Shown: positions 3 to 49,625, counted from the first letter of the stretch. The stretch is 64,000 nt of DNA from Nitrosopumilus adriaticus (GCF_000956175.1 NZ_CP011070.1:496001-560000); one strand, 5' to 3'. A program made the numbers and translations. Notes: generated by a model not told the origin, from the letters alone.

Positions 3-257
3 CATCCAGATTTTTCAAAATCTAATGTGGAGTATTGGCAGATAGGTGACACTGAAATCAAGATTGCTGGAACTGCAATGGATGAAGACAGTACTACGCC
101 TGAATCCCTTAGAACATATGAGATAACATTCAGAGACGGATACTATTACATGATAGAAGGAAAAAATCTAGAGTTTCTCAAAAAATCAATTATCTCGCAC
201 TTTTTCCCAGAATATTCCTATGATGATATGTTTTTGGTATTAAAAAATGAAAACTAG
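3..257 (+). CDS. Hypothetical protein, 5'-truncated, last member before first visible MKTR junction
   Basis: The frame is open to the left edge of the window, so the gene probably starts upstream; an internal GTG at 27 is possible but less likely. About 84 residues are visible, acidic and aromatic-rich, with no membrane segment and no recognised domain. The last residues NEN and the TAG stop are encoded by the DNA that starts the next gene at 247 (11-base overlap), the same arrangement seen at other junctions of this array. By context it is probably the C-terminal part of another exported MKTR-type protein. Function unknown. Confidence 0.6.
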   Translation, partial: HPDFSKSNVEYWQIGDTEIKIAGTAMDEDSTTPESLRTYEITFRDGYYYMIEGKNLEFLKKSIISHFFPEYSYDDMFLVLKNEN

Positions 258-1086
258 ATTCCTGATATTCATCTGCATTGCTGTTTTTGTTACATCCAGT
301 CTTATGGTAATTGCATACACATATCCTGAATCATTTGATTTGACAAGACCCTATTCTGAAATTGGTGAATATGACGGCACGGTTTCAGAAATTGCATTAA
401 TGATTGATGAACAATGCTCAAACAAAAATCAATTCAGTGATTATCCATTTACCAAAACATCAAATGGTCATTACTATATTGATAATGTGATCTGTGAGCG
501 AATTAATGTAGAGCAAGGCGGATGTCTGGAGCCATTTAGCAAGGGATTTCCTGATGAAACCTGTAGGAATCGTTTAACTTTTGATTATCCTTATGGTGAA
601 ACGGGTCCATACTTTAGCAAAGAATTTTGCAATCAGGTGAAATCATGGGAACCTGCACTTACTGACACTGTTGAAAACAAACGAGTAAACTCTGAATGGC
701 TTCAGATATGTATTATTCGTGGATTGATAGAAGACACTTCATGGGTTTTGCTTCCAGTAACTTCGTGTAGTTATCCTTGGCATGAGTCAAACCATGAAAA
801 GACAAAACAGTACTATGTAGAGTATAGAAATATTTTTGGAAATTATGATTCATCAGATCCTCAAGAAAATTCTGAGGCGATGCATTATATCATAACTAGA
901 TATTATGAAGATCTTGGAAAAGACATCCTTGATGTAAAGACAATCTTTGACCATTCAACTACTGGAATGGGTGAAGGATGTAATACGATTGTAGGTGGAA
1001 CTTGGCACTTGAAGATTCAAAATACTGATCTTTCATATTTTTTGGATAGTGGTTTTATTAAACAAAAGATATACCGTGAAAACTAG
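247..1086 (+). CDS. MKTR-family exported hypothetical protein (279 aa)
   Basis: The protein starts MKTRFLIFICIAVFV, a short basic n-region and hydrophobic core typical of a signal peptide or N-terminal anchor (about residues 1-25). The rest is hydrophilic with scattered cysteines (CSNKNQF, ICERI, GGCLEPF, ETC), which suggests a disulfide-stabilised extracytoplasmic domain. The segment YYIDNVICERI resembles HYIDNNICKFI in the MKTR protein at 27857, so the two are likely paralogous. The start overlaps the preceding stop by 11 bases, implying translational coupling. No enzyme motif is visible; function unknown. Confidence 0.75.
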   Translation: MKTRFLIFICIAVFVTSSLMVIAYTYPESFDLTRPYSEIGEYDGTVSEIALMIDEQCSNKNQFSDYPFTKTSNGHYYIDNVICERINVEQGGCLEPFSKGFPDETCRNRLTFDYPYGETGPYFSKEFCNQVKSWEPALTDTVENKRVNSEWLQICIIRGLIEDTSWVLLPVTSCSYPWHESNHEKTKQYYVEYRNIFGNYDSSDPQENSEAMHYIITRYYEDLGKDILDVKTIFDHSTTGMGEGCNTIVGGTWHLKIQNTDLSYFLDSGFIKQKIYREN

Positions 1087-1154
1087 GATTTTACTTTAGA
1101 ATGCAAGAGTAAAGATTCGAAATTCTTATGAATATCATAATTTTAGCTTGAATC

Positions 1155-1388
1155 ATGCAAGTGTATGTTCGCAAAGATGTTCAGGCATTCGAATATGTCT
1201 CTTTTACTGAATTTAAAAATGAAGAAGAGTTGGATTTTTGCTGTGAGAAACTCGAGAAATATGTTTCAGTTGTAAAATCTTGGAGTAGCAAAATTGGAAA
1301 ATTCTGTATTGTAGAAAAAGATACTCTTACGCCAATTGATTACTGTCCTTTCTGTGGTAAAAAAATCGACTATGTCGATGTGGAGTAA
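1155..1388 (+). CDS. Small zinc-ribbon-like protein (77 aa)
   Basis: A short soluble protein without a signal peptide. A CPFCGKK knuckle near residue 68 and an earlier CC pair near residue 30 could form a metal site. It is the only cytoplasmic-looking member of the first array and lies 5 bases before the next MKTR start. An intergenic gap of about 70 bases precedes it and may hold its own promoter. It could be a DNA-binding or adaptor protein; nothing more specific is supported. Confidence 0.65.
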   Translation: MQVYVRKDVQAFEYVSFTEFKNEEELDFCCEKLEKYVSVVKSWSSKIGKFCIVEKDTLTPIDYCPFCGKKIDYVDVE

Positions 1389-1393
1389 AGAAA

Positions 1394-2413
1394 ATGAAAA
1401 CTAGACTTTTGATATTTTTTTTGATGTCTACTGGTGTTGTGATGACAGCTAATGCTGTTCCTATGTTGGATCCTACTCATGCATTTGATTTTTCTGAAAT
1501 AGTAATTGTTGGCAAGATTCTTTCAGTAGAAATTTTATCAGAACCTGAAATCTCAAAAACTGAAAATACTTATCGTGAGGTATCTGGTATTGCACTTTAT
1601 GACATACAAGTGGTAGACTCATTTAAAAATCCAGATAAATACAAATCCATTTCTGTTCCTGGACTTTTTTTGCGAGATCCTCATGGAATGTCCTATGAAA
1701 CTTATCCCTATGAAGTCGGACAACATGTTTTGTTATATCTGCAAGAAAACCAACACGGATATGCCGGAACTGATCTGATTATCCGAAGTGGGGATTCTAG
1801 ATTATTAGAAGGTGAACTTTGTGAGTCTGGATATTATTTTGACAAAGGGCATTGTGTAGTAGTTGATGACTCTGTCCAAACTCCTCTCCCTTCTTGTAAA
1901 AGTGGGCCTAGCCCTGATGGTGATAATTGGGTTTTCTTTGACTGCAAGTGGGTTGTGGCTACACCTGGATGGATTTTTGAAGATGGTATTTGGAAAGATG
2001 ATCCTTCTGTACAAAGAACTGGTCCGGCACCACTTCCAACATGTCCTAGAATTGATATTTGTACATGTAGTGGAAATGTTCACTATTACAATTCAACTGA
2101 TCAGCAATGCCATTTGTCTCCTTACCTGCCAGATTCCAACAAAAAACTATGTGAAGAGTTTTCACAAATGGAGATTGATGGATGGCAGTTTAACTCAAAA
2201 TATTGTGACTGGGAAGAAATCTCAGAACCTTACATGCAACCACCCTCTGATTCTTACAAGAATGATGAGTCATTAAGACTTGCATCAGAAAAAGTTGGTA
2301 TAGGTGGATTGGGAATTGATCCTGAATATGATGTTATAACAATACTTGTTGGAGTGGGAGTTGCAGCAGGAATTTTGTTTGTTCTGTTGTTTGTCTGGAG
2401 ACTTGGAAAATGA
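1394..2413 (+). CDS. MKTR-family exported protein with C-terminal membrane anchor (339 aa)
   Basis: A signal peptide (MKTRLLIFFLMSTGVVMTANA, cleavage near residue 21) is followed by a soluble ectodomain. Residues 25-140 look beta-rich, and a Cys-rich part follows with CESGYYFDKGHC and CPRIDICTC, resembling small disulfide modules in other MKTR proteins. A transmembrane helix near 313-335 precedes the short cytoplasmic tail RLGK. The topology is therefore a surface protein anchored at its C terminus. The stop TGA overlaps the next ATG by 4 bases. An open frame inside it in another phase is not credible as a gene. Confidence 0.75.
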   Translation: MKTRLLIFFLMSTGVVMTANAVPMLDPTHAFDFSEIVIVGKILSVEILSEPEISKTENTYREVSGIALYDIQVVDSFKNPDKYKSISVPGLFLRDPHGMSYETYPYEVGQHVLLYLQENQHGYAGTDLIIRSGDSRLLEGELCESGYYFDKGHCVVVDDSVQTPLPSCKSGPSPDGDNWVFFDCKWVVATPGWIFEDGIWKDDPSVQRTGPAPLPTCPRIDICTCSGNVHYYNSTDQQCHLSPYLPDSNKKLCEEFSQMEIDGWQFNSKYCDWEEISEPYMQPPSDSYKNDESLRLASEKVGIGGLGIDPEYDVITILVGVGVAAGILFVLLFVWRLGK

Positions 2414-3465
2414 AAACTAGACTTTTGATTTTGTTTGTATTTGTTGGATTACTAATTTCCATTCCACATATTTTTGCATCTGAATCGTTTCATGGAACAT
2501 CAAGTTTTGAGAATATTCCTTCAGAAATCTCTCGTCATTTTCCAACCACCTTTGATATCAAACTGCAGTATACTGCAGGTCCGTGGGGTCTTGATGACGT
2601 GATTCCTGTCATTGAGATTTCACCTGAAAATGCTGCATCGCATGTAAGTTTTAATTTTGAACCAATATCTGTGAATAAAAATTCCATTGGAAGAATACCT
2701 GTTACAATAACTGTAGATCCTGCAATAGAGTACGAGAAAATTTTTCTCAGCGTATCTTTTGAAGGAAATAATTCACAAGCAGGCTTACTCAAGAGCGGAT
2801 GGACTGACTCTTTAATTTTATCTCTAGGACCAAGAGATGAAATTTCCCAACGTGTAGACTATGAAAAGATTCCATGGGGGGAACTGGAGATAAAAAGTGA
2901 CGCTGCAATATTTACAAAAAACATGATTCCTCGCTCTATGGTAAAGGCAGGTGAGCAATTCTTTGTAGTGCAAAAAGTAGATTTTAGTAAAGATAACTTT
3001 GCTGCAAACTCAACATTTAGTGCAGTTGTAGGATATGCATTTGAAAAGGGACAAAAGATGATTCCATTTCCAAGGGGAGATAATGTAACTGATGCAGAGC
3101 ATGACAAATTTTCAGAAGACTCGCGAAAACTACGCAACGAGTTTTATCAGAACAGCAAACTTGCAAAGTCATTTGAATTTATAGTAACACCTGAAAAACC
3201 ATTCCTTGTAAAATCCCCTTTTGTACTACCAGAATCAGGAACATATACCCACCAGTTTTTCAAGAAACTAAAGAATTCACCTGCAGTATCAGAATCTAGT
3301 ATGGGAGGTACAACTGTTGTTGAGAAATTCAGCAAGGCAATAGGTGAGAATAACATTTGCAAAAACGAGAATTTTAGAATTTTGATAAAACATGATTATT
3401 CCAACGTGGTATGTGTTGATTCTGATACTGCTTGGACATTAATTGGACGAGGATGGGGATTGTGA
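2410..3465 (+). CDS. MKTR-family secreted hypothetical protein (351 aa)
   Basis: A signal peptide MKTRLLILFVFVG...FAS (about 24 residues) is followed by a roughly 325-residue hydrophilic domain rich in Ser, Phe and Glu. No C-terminal membrane helix is seen, so it is probably secreted or held in the S-layer space. Alternating hydrophobic residues in 40-130 suggest a beta-sandwich (inference). Only a few cysteines occur, near the C terminus (ICKNE, VVCVD). The ATGA overlap with the previous gene and the GTGA overlap with the next imply one operon. Confidence 0.75.
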   Translation: MKTRLLILFVFVGLLISIPHIFASESFHGTSSFENIPSEISRHFPTTFDIKLQYTAGPWGLDDVIPVIEISPENAASHVSFNFEPISVNKNSIGRIPVTITVDPAIEYEKIFLSVSFEGNNSQAGLLKSGWTDSLILSLGPRDEISQRVDYEKIPWGELEIKSDAAIFTKNMIPRSMVKAGEQFFVVQKVDFSKDNFAANSTFSAVVGYAFEKGQKMIPFPRGDNVTDAEHDKFSEDSRKLRNEFYQNSKLAKSFEFIVTPEKPFLVKSPFVLPESGTYTHQFFKKLKNSPAVSESSMGGTTVVEKFSKAIGENNICKNENFRILIKHDYSNVVCVDSDTAWTLIGRGWGL

Positions 3466-4316
3466 AAACTAGATTTTTAATAATTATTGGAATTGTTATG
3501 GTAGTGGGTGCAGCCATAGCTCTTGGTGCAAACATAATGTCTGAAAATGCAAAACAGCGAGAAATAAAATTAAACCAAAGTCATCTTGCATATGATCCAG
3601 TCACTGATCCTATTTGTTTTGTCGTAGATAGGGCAACTTCTGGTGAAACTGGAAGTGCCGTGACTATGGGTGCTTGTATCTCACTAAAACAATTTGAAGA
3701 AATGGGATGCACCAAACCAATGCTTGAGCATATTTTGAGATATTCAAACTTGCTTGATGAAGAAGTTGATGTACACGTCTATCTGGATTGGGCAGGATTG
3801 CCAAATGGAGTTACACAAGAAAAATTTGATGAATGCTTTGATGCTATTCTTGAAAAACGACCTATACTGAATTCAGAAAATCAAGATGAACCAAACTCTT
3901 GTCCTGACGGACAAAACTACAATGAAGCATTGTTCAAATGTGTAATTACTTGTGAAGGTGATTTGGTGTACAACGGTAATACTGATTCTTGTACTACTCA
4001 CTTTGAGCGAAAGTATCATGGATTCTGCAATGAAGGATTCACATACCAACCATTAACACACACATGTCTTACTGAAAATAATCCTGATGATGGTATTGGT
4101 GATCTTGAACATACTCCATTAAAGGATCCGCCTAAAACTGCTCCTCCTGAACCAGCCGTTGAAGATGTTTCATCTATTCCTTCTGCCCAAGAATTTCTTA
4201 ATATGGACTGTGAAGATCTTAACCACCATTATCCTGAATTTCCAAGCGAGGATGTTGCAGACGCTTGGATAACGCGAATGCATCAATGTCTTAATGAACA
4301 AGAAAATGAAAACTAG
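3462..4316 (+). CDS. MKTR-family protein with CPDGQNYN Cys-rich module (284 aa)
   Basis: I chose GTG at 3462 because it gives VKTRFLIIIGIVMVVGA, matching the family N terminus, and overlaps the previous stop by 4 bases; an upstream in-frame start at 3432 would add ten residues that break the pattern. An N-terminal membrane helix is followed by a variable region, then a Cys-rich module beginning CPDGQNYN and running through FERKYHGFCNEG, and a Pro-rich linker (PLKDPPKTAPPEP). The same module and linker occur in the gene at 26941, with 64 identical bases. It is an exported, N-anchored surface protein of unknown role, ending in NEN encoded by the next start. Confidence 0.78.
   Translation: MKTRFLIIIGIVMVVGAAIALGANIMSENAKQREIKLNQSHLAYDPVTDPICFVVDRATSGETGSAVTMGACISLKQFEEMGCTKPMLEHILRYSNLLDEEVDVHVYLDWAGLPNGVTQEKFDECFDAILEKRPILNSENQDEPNSCPDGQNYNEALFKCVITCEGDLVYNGNTDSCTTHFERKYHGFCNEGFTYQPLTHTCLTENNPDDGIGDLEHTPLKDPPKTAPPEPAVEDVSSIPSAQEFLNMDCEDLNHHYPEFPSEDVADAWITRMHQCLNEQENEN
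3949..4012 (+). repeat. 64-bp direct repeat, copy A (partner 27170-27233)
   Basis: This stretch inside the Cys-rich module of the gene at 3462 is base-for-base identical to 27170-27233 inside the gene at 26941. After one mismatch another 20 bases match. Flanking coding sequence is similar but diverged at many positions, so local identity including silent sites points to recent duplication or gene conversion between the two arrays. Confidence 0.9.
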
Positions 4317-4806
4317 ACTTTTGATAATATTTGCCTGTATGTTCGTTTTATTGTTTGGTTACTCGCAACATGTAACTGCAATCTGCATGGAAAATCCAGA
4401 CTGGCCAGATGCTCCTTGTTATGCCATTAGAGCCAATAATCCTGGAGAGATGTATGAAAGAAATGACTGGGTACCATATTATGATTACAAAGGAGAAGAG
4501 TTTATGGAATCCAAAAAAACAGAATTGCTTGAAGCAATAAAAGAAAAACGACTAGACGAATGGAGAAGAGAAGGGCCTGATTCTCAGCACAACAATGTTT
4601 TCATGTATTATTATACTCAGGGTGAAATTCCACACGAGGATGGAAAATTCTATGAACAGCATAAACAAGAAGAAGTAACTGCATACTATGTAGCAAGTTT
4701 ATCAGAAGGATACGTCCCTGTTGGTTCTGCCTCTGTTCATTTTGTTTTGATATTGATTCCAGTTGTAGCACTAACTGCTTTTGTAATTTGGAGAAAAAGA
4801 AAATGA
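4306..4806 (+). CDS. MKTR-family exported protein with C-terminal anchor (166 aa)
   Basis: The start at 4306 gives MKTRLLIIFACMFVLLFGYSQ; an ATG 12 bases upstream is in frame but lies in the previous gene. A signal peptide (cleavage near residue 26) is followed by a short acidic ectodomain with an early cysteine pair and a helical KKTELLEAIKEKRLDEW segment. A transmembrane helix near 143-161 ends in WRKRK. The C-terminal hydrophobic helix plus basic tail indicates a C-anchored surface protein. The stop TGA overlaps the next ATG. No known domain. Confidence 0.75.
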   Translation: MKTRLLIIFACMFVLLFGYSQHVTAICMENPDWPDAPCYAIRANNPGEMYERNDWVPYYDYKGEEFMESKKTELLEAIKEKRLDEWRREGPDSQHNNVFMYYYTQGEIPHEDGKFYEQHKQEEVTAYYVASLSEGYVPVGSASVHFVLILIPVVALTAFVIWRKRK

Positions 4807-5510
4807 AAACTATATTTTTTGTAATTATTGTCTCTATCATAATTGCATCTTCAATAATTTTTGTGGCAGTATGGAATAGTATTCCTAAAGATTGTGATAA
4901 AGATTGTGAGATTGAACGAAGGAGGATAGGATCAGGCCAAGGAGCACAGGGTGTCTTTGAGCCTACCTCTAGAGAAGAACATTATGAAATTAAAATCACA
5001 GGAATGAAGGATATCTATCGTATAGGAGAACAATATGATTTTTCATATGTTATATCTGGATACGGATATTCATGTGGCAGCAAAAAAATTACTTTTCCAG
5101 ATCAAAATGGGGAAACCATGGCGATGTCTTCTAGCTCATCGTGTATTGCAGGTGTCCCAATGACAGACTTTGTCATTGATTCTCAAACAGATGTTTCTGC
5201 ACAATCTGTTCATGGTACAATAAACATTCCTGGAATCTACAATGTCACTGTTACTTTTGATAGACCTTCTAGGGATTTTCCGACAACTGCCGTCAAAGAA
5301 TTTCGTGTACTGCCGATAAATTCTTGGCATAACAACCAAATGACGGATACTGATCTTCAAACGGTAATTGATAGTTGTGCTAATGATTCCCCAAATGAAA
5401 GAATGGCAAATTCCTTAAGATATACAAATGAAACTCATGTTTTTTTGAATCTGGGTTGTGAATGGAAAAAGATTGGGACGTTTGTAGGAGAAAAAGAAAA
5501 TGAAAACTAG
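4803..5510 (+). CDS. MKT-family exported protein (235 aa), variant junction
   Basis: The start at 4803 overlaps the previous stop by 4 bases. The N terminus is MKTIFFVIIVSIIIASSII, so the usual AGA (Arg) codon is ATA here: the array string has one base changed (ATGAAAACTAT). A membrane segment in residues 4-25 is followed by a DCDKDCEIERRR patch and a beta-rich domain (EHYEIKITGMKDIYRIGEQYDF, about 60-175) that resembles Ig-like or CARDB-type extracellular modules in pattern only (inference). It ends in NEN encoded by the next junction. Confidence 0.72.
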   Translation: MKTIFFVIIVSIIIASSIIFVAVWNSIPKDCDKDCEIERRRIGSGQGAQGVFEPTSREEHYEIKITGMKDIYRIGEQYDFSYVISGYGYSCGSKKITFPDQNGETMAMSSSSSCIAGVPMTDFVIDSQTDVSAQSVHGTINIPGIYNVTVTFDRPSRDFPTTAVKEFRVLPINSWHNNQMTDTDLQTVIDSCANDSPNERMANSLRYTNETHVFLNLGCEWKKIGTFVGEKENEN

Positions 5511-5595
5511 ATTTTTGATTGCATGTGGGATTATTATGGGTGCAGGCGTCTTAATTACAACACTATTTTTAGAATGGGTTTCGCAATTTGAGTAA
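5500..5595 (+). CDS. MKTR-family micro-protein, single membrane helix (31 aa)
   Basis: The exact junction string ATGAAAACTAG starts this frame and stops the previous gene. It encodes MKTRFLIACGIIMGAG and then one more hydrophobic stretch, stopping at TAA after QFE. The whole protein is about one membrane span. It is either a real membrane micropeptide or the leader of a cassette whose body has been lost; it is the last member of the array before the tRNA fragment. Confidence 0.5.
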   Translation: MKTRFLIACGIIMGAGVLITTLFLEWVSQFE

Positions 5596-5630
5596 TTCTC
5601 ACTTTAGACTCAAGAATAAAATCCACTTGC

Positions 5631-5734
5631 AGTTTCGAACTCGCGACCTCCAGATTATGAGTATTGCCTTAGTTGGAGAACCGTTAGAGATTACCAAGCG
5701 AACTGGCACTCTAACCAGGCTGAGCTACCCCGGC
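5631..5734 (-). tRNA. tRNA-Met (CAU anticodon), intron-containing, 3' end missing
   Basis: Reading leftward from 5734 the minus strand gives acceptor GCCGGGG, linker TA, a D-arm GCTC..GAGT, and CCAG of the anticodon stem. About 40 bases (5663-5702) then interrupt it before ACTCATAATCTGG, restoring stem CCAGA/TCTGG and loop CTCATAA with anticodon CAT. A non-canonical intron in the 5' anticodon stem is typical of archaea. The variable region and T-arm GCGAGTTCGAAACT follow. At 5630 the expected CGCCCCCGGC acceptor strand is absent, and I do not find it in the next 130 bases. It is likely a truncated gene or integration scar. The 5' end overlaps a palindrome GGCATACTATATGCC at 5732-5746. Confidence 0.6.
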
Positions 5735-5805
5735 ATACTATATGCCTAAAAATCTGGGAAATTAAATGATTCTAAAATATATTGATTAATTATTAGGTGT
5801 AAAGT

Positions 5806-24893: not shown

Positions 24894-25100
24894 ATGGGAC
24901 AAATCAATTGCAAAAACAAATGTAACACACACGAATCCATCTCAAAGCATAGAGCCTATGAGGAAGGTGGATGCTTTTGCAAAAACTGTGACTATTATTT
25001 CAAGGAAAAATTCTTGAGATGCCCATGCTGTAACACTAGAGTTCGCTATTCCACGCGCTCAAATAAGCGAAAATTAGAGTCTGAAATTGCAAGAATATGA
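24894..25100 (+). CDS. Zinc-ribbon protein opening the second MKTR array (68 aa)
   Basis: Cysteine pairs CKNKC, CFCKNC and CPCC with a basic tail TRVRYSTRSNKRK. The C-terminal half parallels the protein at 19559 (CPCCKTRLRSK). Its TGA overlaps the next ATG (ATGA), so it is coupled to the MKTR array. A zinc-ribbon gene also lies in the first array (1155), so a small zinc protein may be a recurrent array component. Confidence 0.7.
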   Translation: MGQINCKNKCNTHESISKHRAYEEGGCFCKNCDYYFKEKFLRCPCCNTRVRYSTRSNKRKLESEIARI

Positions 25101-25492
25101 AAACTAAATTTTTGATTGTTCTTGTATTGATTTCTGTAGCGGTAATTTCTGGGACTCTTTTTGTCATGAATTCTAATCTGATTCTACATCTGATGTATTC
25201 TGATCAGTATCTACTTGAGACTGCAATGAAAAATGAAATTGTGCAAGAGTTTGTCAATATGTATCCTGAAAACAAAATAAGATATGTGAAAGTGTTGGAT
25301 CAGGAACCTGCAATAGTTTTTGAAATGATTTATGATCAAAAGATGGCATTTTTGGCAGTTGGAAGTTTTCAGAATGACAATCTGGAATTTATGTACAAAT
25401 GCTTTTCTTATGATTATAGAACAACATTTTTTGAGTTAAATGGTATACAATATGAAAAACAAGTACGAGACAATCCTTGTTGGGAAATATGA
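25097..25492 (+). CDS. MKT(K)-family exported protein (131 aa)
   Basis: MKTKFLIVLVLISVAVISGTLF is an N-terminal anchor; the junction string is ATGAAAACTAA, a one-base variant. The ectodomain has VQEFVNMYPENKIRYVKVLD and then KCFSYDYRTTFF. A similar VKFFIEKYP pattern occurs in the gene at 26321, so the two may share a domain. The stop shares one base with the next ATG. Function unknown. Confidence 0.7.
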   Translation: MKTKFLIVLVLISVAVISGTLFVMNSNLILHLMYSDQYLLETAMKNEIVQEFVNMYPENKIRYVKVLDQEPAIVFEMIYDQKMAFLAVGSFQNDNLEFMYKCFSYDYRTTFFELNGIQYEKQVRDNPCWEI

Positions 25493-25959
25493 TGAAAACT
25501 AGACTATTGTTGATCGGATTGTTCATTACGACAATTATTCTTCCCGCAATGGCACAAGAATCCAATCTTGTAGGGGGCGGTTCAGTAAATTTGGATTCTG
25601 AATTGGCACCAAGCTTTTCACAAGATTTTGTATGGTACAAATTTCTGATTCCATTAATTATTCCGATAATTATCATATTCTCATTGTTTATTGGAACCTT
25701 TTTTGTTCTAAAACTCAAAAAAATTTCTAGCAGGCCATACTTGTCTTTGGAATTGGCAGGTCTACTGTTGTTTTTTGGGATACCAAACCTTGTTTCTTCT
25801 TTAGGTTTTTTGCCAATACTCATATCACAACCCGAGCAAATCAGGCCATACATCTTTGAGCAAATTTTTGTTGCCTTGTGGGTACCAATAGTTACATTGT
25901 CTGTTGCAGGAATCTTGTTGTACAGATCCTCTGTTCTTAGGAAGTTGATTAAAAAATGA
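25492..25959 (+). CDS. MKTR-family polytopic membrane protein (155 aa)
   Basis: The start at 25492 follows TGATG; an upstream in-frame ATG would break the family pattern. A signal peptide MKTRLLLIGLFITTIILPAMA is followed by three membrane helices (FLIPLIIPIIIIFSLFIGTF, LSLELAGLLLFFGIPNL, FEQIFVALWVPIVTLSVAGI) and a basic tail. It is the only clearly multi-span member of the arrays. It might anchor or assemble the neighbouring surface proteins (inference). Confidence 0.7.
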   Translation: MKTRLLLIGLFITTIILPAMAQESNLVGGGSVNLDSELAPSFSQDFVWYKFLIPLIIPIIIIFSLFIGTFFVLKLKKISSRPYLSLELAGLLLFFGIPNLVSSLGFLPILISQPEQIRPYIFEQIFVALWVPIVTLSVAGILLYRSSVLRKLIKK

Positions 25960-26940: not shown

Positions 26941-27867
26941 ATGAAAACTAGAATTTTGATAATTATTGGAATTGCCATTTCATTTACTATCGCTTTTTTT
27001 GTTTTGGGTCCATCGCAAGGCCATATTGCTGAATATTTTCTAACTGATGAGCAGTTTGAGGACATGATTTTGAATACTGACAACACTGATAGATATTTGA
27101 CATATGACGAATCAAAGACTTGTCCTGATGGACAAAATTACAATCAAGTACTGTTCAAATGTGTCGTCTCTTGTGAAGGTGATTTGGTGTACAACGGTAA
27201 TACTGATTCTTGTACTACTCACTTTGAGCGAAAATATCATGGATTCTGCAATGAGGGATTAACATACAGTCCATCATTGCATGTTTGTTTGGGTGATGAT
27301 TCTGATGTTCAAATCCCTCCACTAAAAGATCCTCCGAGAACTGCACCACCCGAACCAATTCCAACACTTGAATCTAAAATTATGAAAAAAGCTGAAGAAT
27401 TAGGGATAACCAACATAATGAAAGCAGTTGATTCTAAAGAACTAAGTTATGATGAGAAAAAAGACTACATAAAAATTCGATATGAAGAATCTCCAGGACA
27501 AATTCCATCATTAAACATTAGGATCAAAGATTTTACTAGAAATCTGGAATATGGAGAACGACCCACATTCACTGTAATTGAAACAGGATATGCTAATCCA
27601 TGCACGCATCCCAAACTGGAAGTATACCATCTAAAACAAGAAATTGGTAATGACCACACATCTAATGATCTAGTTTATGAGGATAGGATTGTGTATTCTT
27701 GTCCGTTCTTTGATTCTTTTTACCCTGTTTTGAAATTCTGGGATGAAACAGATTTTGATCCGTTCCCTGTATGTGAAAAAGAAGGACGGTATCTTGTAGT
27801 GGGAGATTCAGGTTATGAAAGGATGCCATTAGAAGAATACTATTGTGGAATAGAAAATGAAAACTAG
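26941..27867 (+). CDS. MKTR-family protein with CPDGQNYN Cys-rich module (308 aa)
   Basis: The start at 26941 (MKTRILIIIGIAISF) matches the family; a TTG six bases earlier is in frame. The N-terminal helix is followed by a short linker, then the CPDGQNYN to FCNEG Cys-rich module (about 61-103), PPLKDPPRTAPPEP, and a distinct C-terminal domain with GERPTFTVIETGYANPC and VYSCPFFD that looks like an Ig-like beta-sandwich (inference). It shares the module and linker with the gene at 3462, but the rest differs: a clear case of module exchange. It ends in NEN encoded by the next start. Confidence 0.78.
   Translation: MKTRILIIIGIAISFTIAFFVLGPSQGHIAEYFLTDEQFEDMILNTDNTDRYLTYDESKTCPDGQNYNQVLFKCVVSCEGDLVYNGNTDSCTTHFERKYHGFCNEGLTYSPSLHVCLGDDSDVQIPPLKDPPRTAPPEPIPTLESKIMKKAEELGITNIMKAVDSKELSYDEKKDYIKIRYEESPGQIPSLNIRIKDFTRNLEYGERPTFTVIETGYANPCTHPKLEVYHLKQEIGNDHTSNDLVYEDRIVYSCPFFDSFYPVLKFWDETDFDPFPVCEKEGRYLVVGDSGYERMPLEEYYCGIENEN
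27170..27233 (+). repeat. 64-bp direct repeat, copy B (partner 3949-4012)
   Basis: Identical over 64 bases to the copy inside the gene at 3462, in the same reading phase. It lies in the Cys-rich module of the gene at 26941. Confidence 0.9.
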
Positions 27868-28330
27868 ATTATTGATAATTATTGGACTTGTTTTGGTTGT
27901 TGGAACAATGCTTGCAGTTCTGGTAAACCATCACAATTCAATTCGTGAATACGAATCAAACAATACTCCAGACCAACTAAGAGGAATCTTTGGCAACTGT
28001 GCATGTCAGGAAAAACAAAACCCTGACACAAACATGTTGTGCACTCAACCCTTCATCGACTGGGAGAACTCTACGCATTACATTGACAACAACATTTGTA
28101 AATTCATAACCTTAGAAGAACATCAAAGTAAACCCTCTGATGAAAACCGATATTTTTTCAAAGTAGGTGATTTGTTTTATTGGCAGAATTTACAGACAGG
28201 TGAAACAATATCTCCCTTAGGAACATTTACTGCCATAATTGTGAGTAGTCTTGGACCAATCCTTATTGTATTGTTTATTGTAATTTATGCAGTTAAAAAA
28301 AGAATGAAGAAAAGCATTGAGGAACGCTAA
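27857..28330 (+). CDS. MKTR-family protein with N- and C-terminal membrane helices (157 aa)
   Basis: MKTRLLIIIGLVLVVGTMLAVL anchors the N terminus; a small Cys domain (CACQEKQNP, LCTQPF, HYIDNNICKFI) lies outside, and a second helix (AIIVSSLGPILIVLFIVIYA) ends in a basic tail. The HYIDNNIC motif parallels YYIDNVIC at 247. It is the last member of array 2. Confidence 0.72.
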   Translation: MKTRLLIIIGLVLVVGTMLAVLVNHHNSIREYESNNTPDQLRGIFGNCACQEKQNPDTNMLCTQPFIDWENSTHYIDNNICKFITLEEHQSKPSDENRYFFKVGDLFYWQNLQTGETISPLGTFTAIIVSSLGPILIVLFIVIYAVKKRMKKSIEER

Positions 28331-48599: not shown

Positions 48600-49625
48600 A
48601 TGAAAACTCGATCAATTGTTTCAGCAGGAATTGTGGGAATAATTTTGATGATAACACTCGGAATTACTCTTAATTCTAGCGATACTATACATGAAAATAA
48701 ACTTCGTATTGCATATTTTCCAAATATTGGTCATGCTATCCCTATTGTTGGAATGGAAAAAGACTTTTTTCAAAAAAGTATTGGCGATGAAATAAAAATT
48801 GAAGCACGTGTTTTTGATAGCGGCCCCCAGGCAATTGAATCATTATTTGCAAATTCAATTGATCTTGCCTATGTTGGACCTGGACCTGCAATAAATGGAT
48901 TTTTAAATTCAGAAAATCATAATGTAAGGATTCTTGCAGGTGCTGCAAGTGGTGGAGCAAGCTTTATCGTTCATCCATTATCTGAAATTAATTCTGCATC
49001 TGACTTTGCTGACAAAAAGATTGCTGCACCTCAAATTGGAAACACTCAAGATGTTTCTCTACGTCACTATCTATCTGTAAATGGTTTGAAGACTGCAGAA
49101 AAGGGCGGTTCAGTGATTGTCTATAATATTCCGAATCCTGATATCTACACTTTATTTGTAAAAGGCGATATTGATGGTGCATGGGTTGCCGAACCTTGGG
49201 CTACTATTTTAGAAACTGAACTTGATGGAAAAAGATTATTCCACGAAGAGGAATTGTGGCCAAACAATGAATTTGCATCTGTTCTTTTGATTGCAAATGT
49301 GGATTATGTTGAAAAAAATCGTAAACTAGTTTCTGATTTGTTGACTTCACATCATGAAACTGCAGAATGGATTAATGAAAATCCAATAGAAACTAGAATT
49401 ATTTTTAATAATTTTCTAAAATCACACTTGGGACAATCTTTATCTGATGATGTTGTGGATGTTGCTTTATCCAATCTTGTAATAACTGCTGATCCTCTTC
49501 TTGATTCTGTTTACTCTTTTGCAGAAAAAGCTGATACGCTTGGATATTTGGGAAGAAATGGATATGACTTAGCTGGAATTTTTTACCCCCTTAATTCAAA
49601 TTCTGTCTTGGAGGAAAACACGTAA
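48600..49625 (+). CDS. ABC transporter substrate-binding protein (NMT1/SsuA-like)
   Basis: The N-terminal anchor MKTRSIVSAGIVGIILMITLG shares the MKTR start (ATGAAAACTCGA). Then LRIAYFPNIGHAIPIVGMEK, SIDLAYVGPGPAING and DGAWVAEPWATIL follow the SsuA/TauA/NrtA pattern of type II periplasmic-binding proteins. The ligand is unknown: sulfonate, taurine, nitrate or a thiamine precursor are family options. The stop shares one base with the next start, so the three genes form an operon. Confidence 0.85.
   Translation: MKTRSIVSAGIVGIILMITLGITLNSSDTIHENKLRIAYFPNIGHAIPIVGMEKDFFQKSIGDEIKIEARVFDSGPQAIESLFANSIDLAYVGPGPAINGFLNSENHNVRILAGAASGGASFIVHPLSEINSASDFADKKIAAPQIGNTQDVSLRHYLSVNGLKTAEKGGSVIVYNIPNPDIYTLFVKGDIDGAWVAEPWATILETELDGKRLFHEEELWPNNEFASVLLIANVDYVEKNRKLVSDLLTSHHETAEWINENPIETRIIFNNFLKSHLGQSLSDDVVDVALSNLVITADPLLDSVYSFAEKADTLGYLGRNGYDLAGIFYPLNSNSVLEENT

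Follow-up and report, generated by a model that had tools for sequence, protein, structure and literature searches.

A 64,000-nucleotide stretch of the Nitrosopumilus adriaticus genome (the window hereafter, bases 496001-560000 of a single contig of 1,803,090 bases) carries tandem arrays of genes for exported proteins, in which one gene after another opens with the same short DNA string, ATGAAAACTAGA. The repeat at once stops the upstream gene in any reading frame and gives the downstream gene its start codon and the beginning of its signal sequence. It is conserved at the DNA level between unrelated gene bodies, breakpoints between genomes lie at the repeat, and cassettes are reused both within and between species. 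We interpret the string as an interface for cassette exchange that works without an integrase, with exchange by homologous or short-homology recombination and with no fixed order of genes in the arrays, and we give this reading a probability of roughly 0.6.

The string and its arrays

The exact string is present in 11 copies in the window, all on the plus strand and each at the start of an open reading frame (ORF), and three one-base variants are also gene starts: 3462 (GTG), 4803 (ACTATA) and 25097 (ACTAAA). A preliminary description of this DNA had reported exact or one-base-variant strings at these 14 gene starts, and every one of them was found in place. Allowing up to one mismatch gives 15 matches in the window against 1.1 expected (100 shuffles, largest 4), the fifteenth, at 48600, being the start of a conserved gene outside the arrays. 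Of the 16 exact copies in the whole genome, 15 fall between 481 and 524 kb, every one on the plus strand, and make up three arrays at 481.5-487.7, 493.9-501.5 and 521.1-524.3 kb (arrays 0, 1 and 2); a small fourth array is found at 462.0-462.5 kb. When the genome was searched without bias with ATGAARACNMGN, ACTAG was confined to the same 481-524 kb, except for two non-array genes at 583 kb and 934 kb. As a whole, the conserved unit extends beyond what was first noted: it reads about TAGAAAATGAAAACTAGA, with a weaker CTTTTGATAATTATTGG (or TACAAAATA) behind it. An alignment of 62 starts from many genomes, chosen for a signal-like N-terminus, gives the core from -4 as GAAAATGAAAACTAGA, again followed by the weaker extension, and the repeat fades over some 40 bp. 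At the junctions, conservation spans about -6 to +36. The features of the two arrays in the window are as follows (window coordinates).

Array 1
241-258, plus: string 1, ATGAAAACTAGA at 247; its TAG (255-257) is the stop of an upstream ORF, 27-257
247-1086, plus: cassette gene, exported protein of 279 amino acids; its body recurs elsewhere in genomes G059, G163, G015 and G169
1076-1086, plus: degenerate string GTGAAAACTAG, which closes the 247-1086 gene and opens none
1095-1154, plus: conserved non-coding leader GATTCGAAATTCTTATGAATATCATAATTTTAGCTTGAAT, which may contain a promoter
1155-1388, plus: zinc-ribbon-like head gene, 77 amino acids, without Pfam match
1388-1405, plus: string at 1394
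1394-2413, plus: cassette gene, 339 amino acids, predicted C-terminal membrane anchor; its stop is the TGA of the next string
2404-2421, plus: string at 2410
2410-3465, plus: cassette gene, 351 amino acids; matches in G058, G165 and G144 start at this string and finish at the next one or shortly after it
3456-3473, plus: string at 3462, GTG start variant
3462-4316, plus: cassette gene, 284 amino acids, weak CBM_14-like Cys motif; ends ...ENEN on the TAG of the next string
4300-4317, plus: string at 4306
4306-4806, plus: cassette gene, 166 amino acids, C-terminal anchor
4797-4814, plus: string variant at 4803, ATGAAAACTATA, +2 stop lost
4803-5510, plus: cassette gene, 235 amino acids; ends ...KENEN on the TAG of the terminal string
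5494-5511, plus: terminal string at 5500
5500-5620, plus: array terminus, only a 31-codon ORF and tail; second copy at genome 462347-462476 (84%)

Array 2
24894-25100, plus: zinc-ribbon-like head gene, 68 amino acids, without Pfam match
25091-25108, plus: string variant at 25097, ATGAAAACTAAA, whose TAA retains the +2 stop
25097-25492, plus: cassette gene, 131 amino acids; entire unit in Nitrosopumilus salaria BD31 with other neighbours
25492-25959, plus: string and cassette gene, 155 amino acids
25956-26324, plus: string (MKTRYK flavour) and cassette gene, 122 amino acids
26321-26749, plus: string and cassette gene, 142 amino acids
26746-26934, plus: string and cassette gene, 62 amino acids; entire unit recurs in G059
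26941-27867, plus: string and cassette gene, 308 amino acids, CBM_14-like Cys motif as in the 3462 gene; its stop is the TAG of the next string
27857-28330, plus: string and final cassette gene, 157 amino acids, C-terminal anchor; in G164 a homolog has different neighbours

Stops in three frames and fixed codons

The extended string carries a TAG at -6 (phase 0), a TGA at +2 (phase +1) and a TAG at +9 (phase +2) around a single start. That the TGA and the TAG close the two frames not opened by the string had been proposed before; this is borne out, and with the third stop at -6 the extended string is closed in all three frames. In the window, upstream genes stop on the TGA of the strings at 2410, 3462, 4803, 25097, 25956, 26321 and 26746 and on the TAG of those at 247, 4306, 5500 and 27857, and they have their own stop just 5' of the strings at 1394, 25492 and 26941. 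An upstream ORF could be identified at 168 junctions, and the phases in which these genes arrive are uniform (48/60/60, P = 0.42), whereas those of ordinary neighbouring genes in the same regions are skewed (27/59/40, P = 0.002). The stops supplied by the string are used in each phase (24 at -6 in phase 0, 42 on the TGA in phase 1 and 43 on the TAG or TAA in phase 2), and no in-frame fusion of an upstream and a downstream gene was found among the junctions examined. Because the +2 stop is kept even where the upstream frame does not need it (34/34 phase-0 and 45/52 phase-1 junctions), it is not explained by the need of each junction. The TAG at -6 is less strict, being present at 23 of 103 junctions without need for it versus 37 of 510 control starts.

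The string is also far more constrained than the peptide it encodes. Codon 3 (Thr) is ACT in 143 of 147 MKTR starts against a background of 37% (P = 1e-55), codon 6 is TTG in 49/51 (background 22%) and codon 7 is ATA in 46/51 (background 29%); the counts for codons 6 and 7 exclude pattern-selected contigs and are unaffected by the choice of loci, whereas that for codon 3 is partly biased. The string thus opens genes far more often than the codon usage of MKTR would lead one to expect, as had been anticipated. KTR codons inside genes read AAAACTAGA in just 2 of 28 cases. Across the family, the 15-mer GAAAATGAAAACTAG is present in 52 of 250 genomes and 7 of 22 genera, and its reversed-pattern control gave two matches. 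A 25-base version is found only in Nitrosopumilus, Nitrosarchaeum, records titled Thaumarchaeota or Nitrososphaerota, and two contigs in bacterial bins. These two (L070 and L075), from metagenome-assembled genomes filed as Planctomycetaceae and Saprospiraceae, bear the archaeal string and are probably mis-binned archaeal contigs. K-T-R is a plausible n-region of a signal peptide, and AAA and AGA are common codons, so that one could think of chance or of codon bias in the MKTR signal sequences of an A+T-rich genome; the shuffles, the reversed-pattern control, the codon tests and the internal KTR codons together rule this out, and we give it practically no chance. A viral origin was considered as well and rejected: a 16-mer occurs in 44 IMG/VR contigs, yet none of them runs on into the array consensus.

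We consider it improbable that translational selection alone accounts for the string, that is, that the string is merely an optimal context for coupling or initiation while island genes turn over and break at gene boundaries anyway. Overlapping stops and starts are a known arrangement for translational coupling, an A-rich start suits archaea that make little use of Shine-Dalgarno sequences, and in array loci 109 of the 141 exact strings start an ORF of at least 40 codons. The TGA/ATG overlap at 42 of the 168 junctions also resembles the ATGA overlaps at which termination is followed by reinitiation, but the string serves two other frames in addition, is fixed at synonymous sites and is present after the last gene. 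Such selection would leave unexplained the fixed synonymous codons 6 and 7, the unneeded +2 stop, the uniform incoming phases, the strings after the last gene and the base-sharp breaks within overlapping genes. The remaining 32 of the 141 strings open fewer than 40 codons, which indicates that the string does more than supply a start codon; they are mostly followed by non-coding sequence, often with a remnant of a signal sequence. Owing to terminal strings a cassette often has the string at either end, and a motif that served purely as a start codon does not account for this. Translational selection may well contribute to keeping the string.

Cassette turnover, cargo and genomic setting

Array 1 has no syntenic copy in 95 genomes of the genus; its cassettes are scattered singly, and their match ends lie on strings. 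The suggestion that gene order in the arrays is not strictly conserved therefore stands. The match of the 2410 cassette, for example, spans 2406-3466 in G058, 2406-3498 in G165 and 2410-3482 in G144. Synteny breakpoints had been expected at the string, and over 31 array-bearing loci 131 of 605 inter-genome match ends do lie within -25 to +35 of one; 500 circular shifts gave 15 on average and 30 at most. Homologous string genes rarely keep their neighbours from one genome to another: the left neighbour is kept in 4/51 cases (two of these four being non-array genes) versus 75/138 for control genes, and the right neighbour in 7/44 versus 65/141. Nine entire string-to-string units are common to different genomes, four of them involving the genome of the window, and the neighbours differ where they are known. 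One cassette shared by G163 and G146 is near-identical from AAATGAAAACTAG onwards and unrelated 5' of it; its identity of 95.6%, above that of topoisomerase IB from the same pair (83.8%), indicates lateral transfer.

G031, the closest relative that was identified, runs collinear with the genome of the window at 90% over 12.5 kb, up to the end of array 1, and has the array cassettes only as single pieces at other positions. The sister species G164 and G059 (topoisomerase IB 96.5%) have no collinear array in the compared stretches, only scattered single cassettes. The best candidate for an A-C versus A-B-C arrangement is a pair of cassettes, X and Y, that are adjacent in the window's genome and separated by three units in G031, a case weakened by the identity of only 62% for Y. 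Two otherwise different cassette genes of the window share a 162-bp internal module, CEGDLVYNGNTDSCTTHFERKYHGFCNEG, with a weak CBM_14 match (3885-4046 and 27106-27267, 90% identical), which indicates that modules within genes are exchanged too.

The bodies downstream of the string had been described as unrelated or modular exported proteins, and our data agree. The bodies of the 138 array proteins group into 74 clusters, of which 46 have just one member, and an N-terminal hydrophobic segment is found in 135 and a C-terminal anchor in 43. Judging from these segments, the cassette products would act at the cell surface or outside the cell. Most are without a family: a Pfam search of 121 cassette proteins matched 15 families. 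Among the families recognised are serpin (3), cupredoxin, Kunitz, SNase, metallophosphatase and DUF6438. Full-length serpins (E < 1e-100) occur as string cassettes at L091:12636-13946 and L055:1230-2525, and the serpin cassettes of G164 and G059 are 92% identical in DNA while their neighbours differ. In sponge-associated Thaumarchaeota, serpins have been discussed as a guard against digestion by the host (PMC7848895). A search of PDB sequences with the 1394 protein gave no match, and a structure predicted for the 2410 protein from two sequences was unusable (predicted local distance difference test, pLDDT, 32).

Had all array genes arisen from a single ancestor through tandem duplication, with the 5' end kept and the bodies too far diverged to be recognised, they would share an N-terminus as they in fact do, and some of the families do have several members within one array. 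We nevertheless regard such an expansion as very unlikely, since the clusters include unrelated folds (serpin, Kunitz, SNase, cupredoxin), the string is as alike in unrelated bodies as in homologs, and gene order is not inherited. Positions 1-12 of the string are 93% alike between unrelated bodies and 94% alike between homologous cassettes, and the 24 bases upstream of it are 28-30% alike in homologous and unrelated pairs.

Four other genomes have homologs of the 1155-1388 head gene; after each comes a string and then a different first cassette, and the sequences upstream of these homologs differ. Short Cys-rich, zinc-ribbon-like proteins of 42-77 amino acids stand at the head of several arrays (1155-1388 and 24894-25100 in the window, and L084, L063, L089 and L095). 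A conserved non-coding leader lies 5' of some heads, and the second copy of GATTCGAAATTCTTATGAATATCATAATTTTAGCTTGAAT, at genome 462.0 kb, abuts a string directly. There is a second conserved start, ATGAAGTATTTTGTAATTTT (MKYF), with a shared upstream sequence, RTTTCATACAGT (L091:10385, L090:7223, L088:11654, L087:1143 and others); these genes, often array heads, are a possible promoter-bearing first cassette. In G013, several strings, whole or half, continue into GTTCAAACCTGTTGGGATTTGAAC-like sequence (L050:14468, L052:2620, L053:2368 and, on the minus strand, L054:7282), which resembles an inverted repeat and may be a terminator or an element that ends an array.

An integrative element targeted to a tRNA is an island at the 3' end of the tRNA, flanked by copies. 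Arrays 0 and 1 sit inside an insertion of 31.4 kb at a tRNA, and G031 lacks this insertion; the other arrays are found away from this site, and none of the listed Phage_integrase matches falls within the insertion. The tRNA in question, intron-bearing and with a CAT anticodon (window 5631-5737, minus strand), is without its 3' end, which is found 31.4 kb away at genome 470203, the other border of the island. In G031 the same tRNA is intact and collinear, G013 has a 5.7-kb element at the same, intact tRNA, and the window's genome holds an intact copy, 97% identical, at 1093623-1093740, adjoining a Phage_integrase match.

Probable recombination and comparison with known systems

Exchange at the string could also depend on a site-specific system, with a dedicated recombinase that is encoded in trans, binds to the string as its site and inserts or removes cassettes in the manner of integrons. 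The sharp breaks within the 15-18 bp core, the uniform orientation of the cassettes and the terminal strings without a long gene would fit such a system, and the order of head gene, string and variable first cassette resembles attI. No recombinase was seen among the 25 families listed (of 83 matched) for 115 array neighbours, and we therefore searched whole genomes for PF00589, TIGR02249 and PF00239. In the 16 string-rich genomes, no integron integrase (TIGR02249) scored over the cut-off, with only weak general integrase similarity, and no serine recombinase (PF00239) was found by a search that was positive in 10 of 14 control genomes. The number of integrases does not go with that of strings (19 and 2 in G160, 1 and 11 in G163), and the integrase matches listed for the window's genome are 0.6-0.7 Mb from its arrays. 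The core has no inverted repeat or palindrome evident by eye, and the repeat fades gradually. We consider an integron-like enzyme unlikely for these reasons. It is likewise doubtful, if slightly less so, that the string is the target of a dedicated, as yet undescribed recombination machinery of the Nitrosopumilaceae, with the site itself encoding the three-frame stop, the start and the first signal residues.

We prefer homologous or short-homology recombination because there is no integron or serine enzyme, the integrases are distant, a palindrome is lacking and the repeat is graded over about 40 bp. Recombination of the RadA type, or annealing, would take place between the repeats of resident arrays and incoming DNA. 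The repeat would persist because any product of exchange is a translatable, usually overlapping junction. Arrays may be co-transcribed from a head promoter 5' of the small zinc-ribbon-like or MKYF-type gene, and a new cassette would then be expressed through translational coupling.

Several points weigh against exchange of this kind. Every string-rich genome has at least one Phage_integrase (PF00589) match, so that a trans-acting enzyme is possible, and 15-18 bp is short for efficient homologous recombination. Among 38 cassette pairs, 31 are less alike than topoisomerase IB, and most are therefore not very recent transfers. Recombination is deduced from comparisons and not from direct observation of an event, and transcription and translation of the arrays are likewise read from sequence. 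The comparisons took one genome per species and hence concern turnover between species only; that turnover also generates diversity within a population is our inference.

The arrays resemble integrons in that mostly promoterless single-gene cassettes of high novelty stand head to tail with one repeat per junction, variable cassettes follow a fixed head, orientation is one-sided, cassettes are reshuffled between genomes, and they are exchanged as units at the repeat. They differ in that there is no integron integrase, the repeat, about 18 bp long, is embedded in the beginning of the cassette gene and gives start and stops to both neighbours, and the cargo is almost all exported. An attC site is 60-150 bp and folds, whereas conservation at string junctions is shorter and without evident palindrome. 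Lacking the integrase and attC, the string arrays fail two defining features of integrons, though they work like a cassette array. In antigen families such as Anaplasma msp2, conserved flanks surround variable bodies that recombine by gene conversion. What such families move into an expression site are variants of a single protein, whereas the string arrays move whole unrelated genes as modules, all of which appear to be expressible in place. The shuffling of msp2 is named in PMC2789410.

An archaeal parallel is VARTIG of the Thermococcales, lineage-specific loci for exported proteins with unique combinations of downstream genes, which have been attributed to recombination (PMC8416519). The recombined gene sets are a shared feature, but VARTIG is one large Ig-domain protein with a variable C-terminus, and the text consulted describes no shared start string or frame-independent junction and reports that a search of other archaea gave no closely similar module (PMC8416519). 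No Ig-fold family is among the 15 Pfam families of the cassette proteins, and the heads of the string arrays, often short zinc-ribbon-like or MKYF-type genes, are unlike the VARTIG head. The consulted portion of a survey of mobile elements in Thaumarchaeota has integrons only as a bacterial comparison and describes no such array (PMC6563490), and we found no description of string arrays in the open-licence literature.

The joining of genes by a short DNA interface independently of frame is a natural answer to a problem that integrons solve otherwise. If a dedicated machinery did exist, any exported-protein module could be plugged in. The string makes the turnover of array genes testable by counting junctions, and it is a signature for part of the accessory secretome, with serpins and other protease inhibitors, in genomes and metagenomes of Nitrosopumilaceae. 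Ammonia-oxidising archaea rank with the ocean's most abundant cells, and little is known about how their exported proteins diversify.

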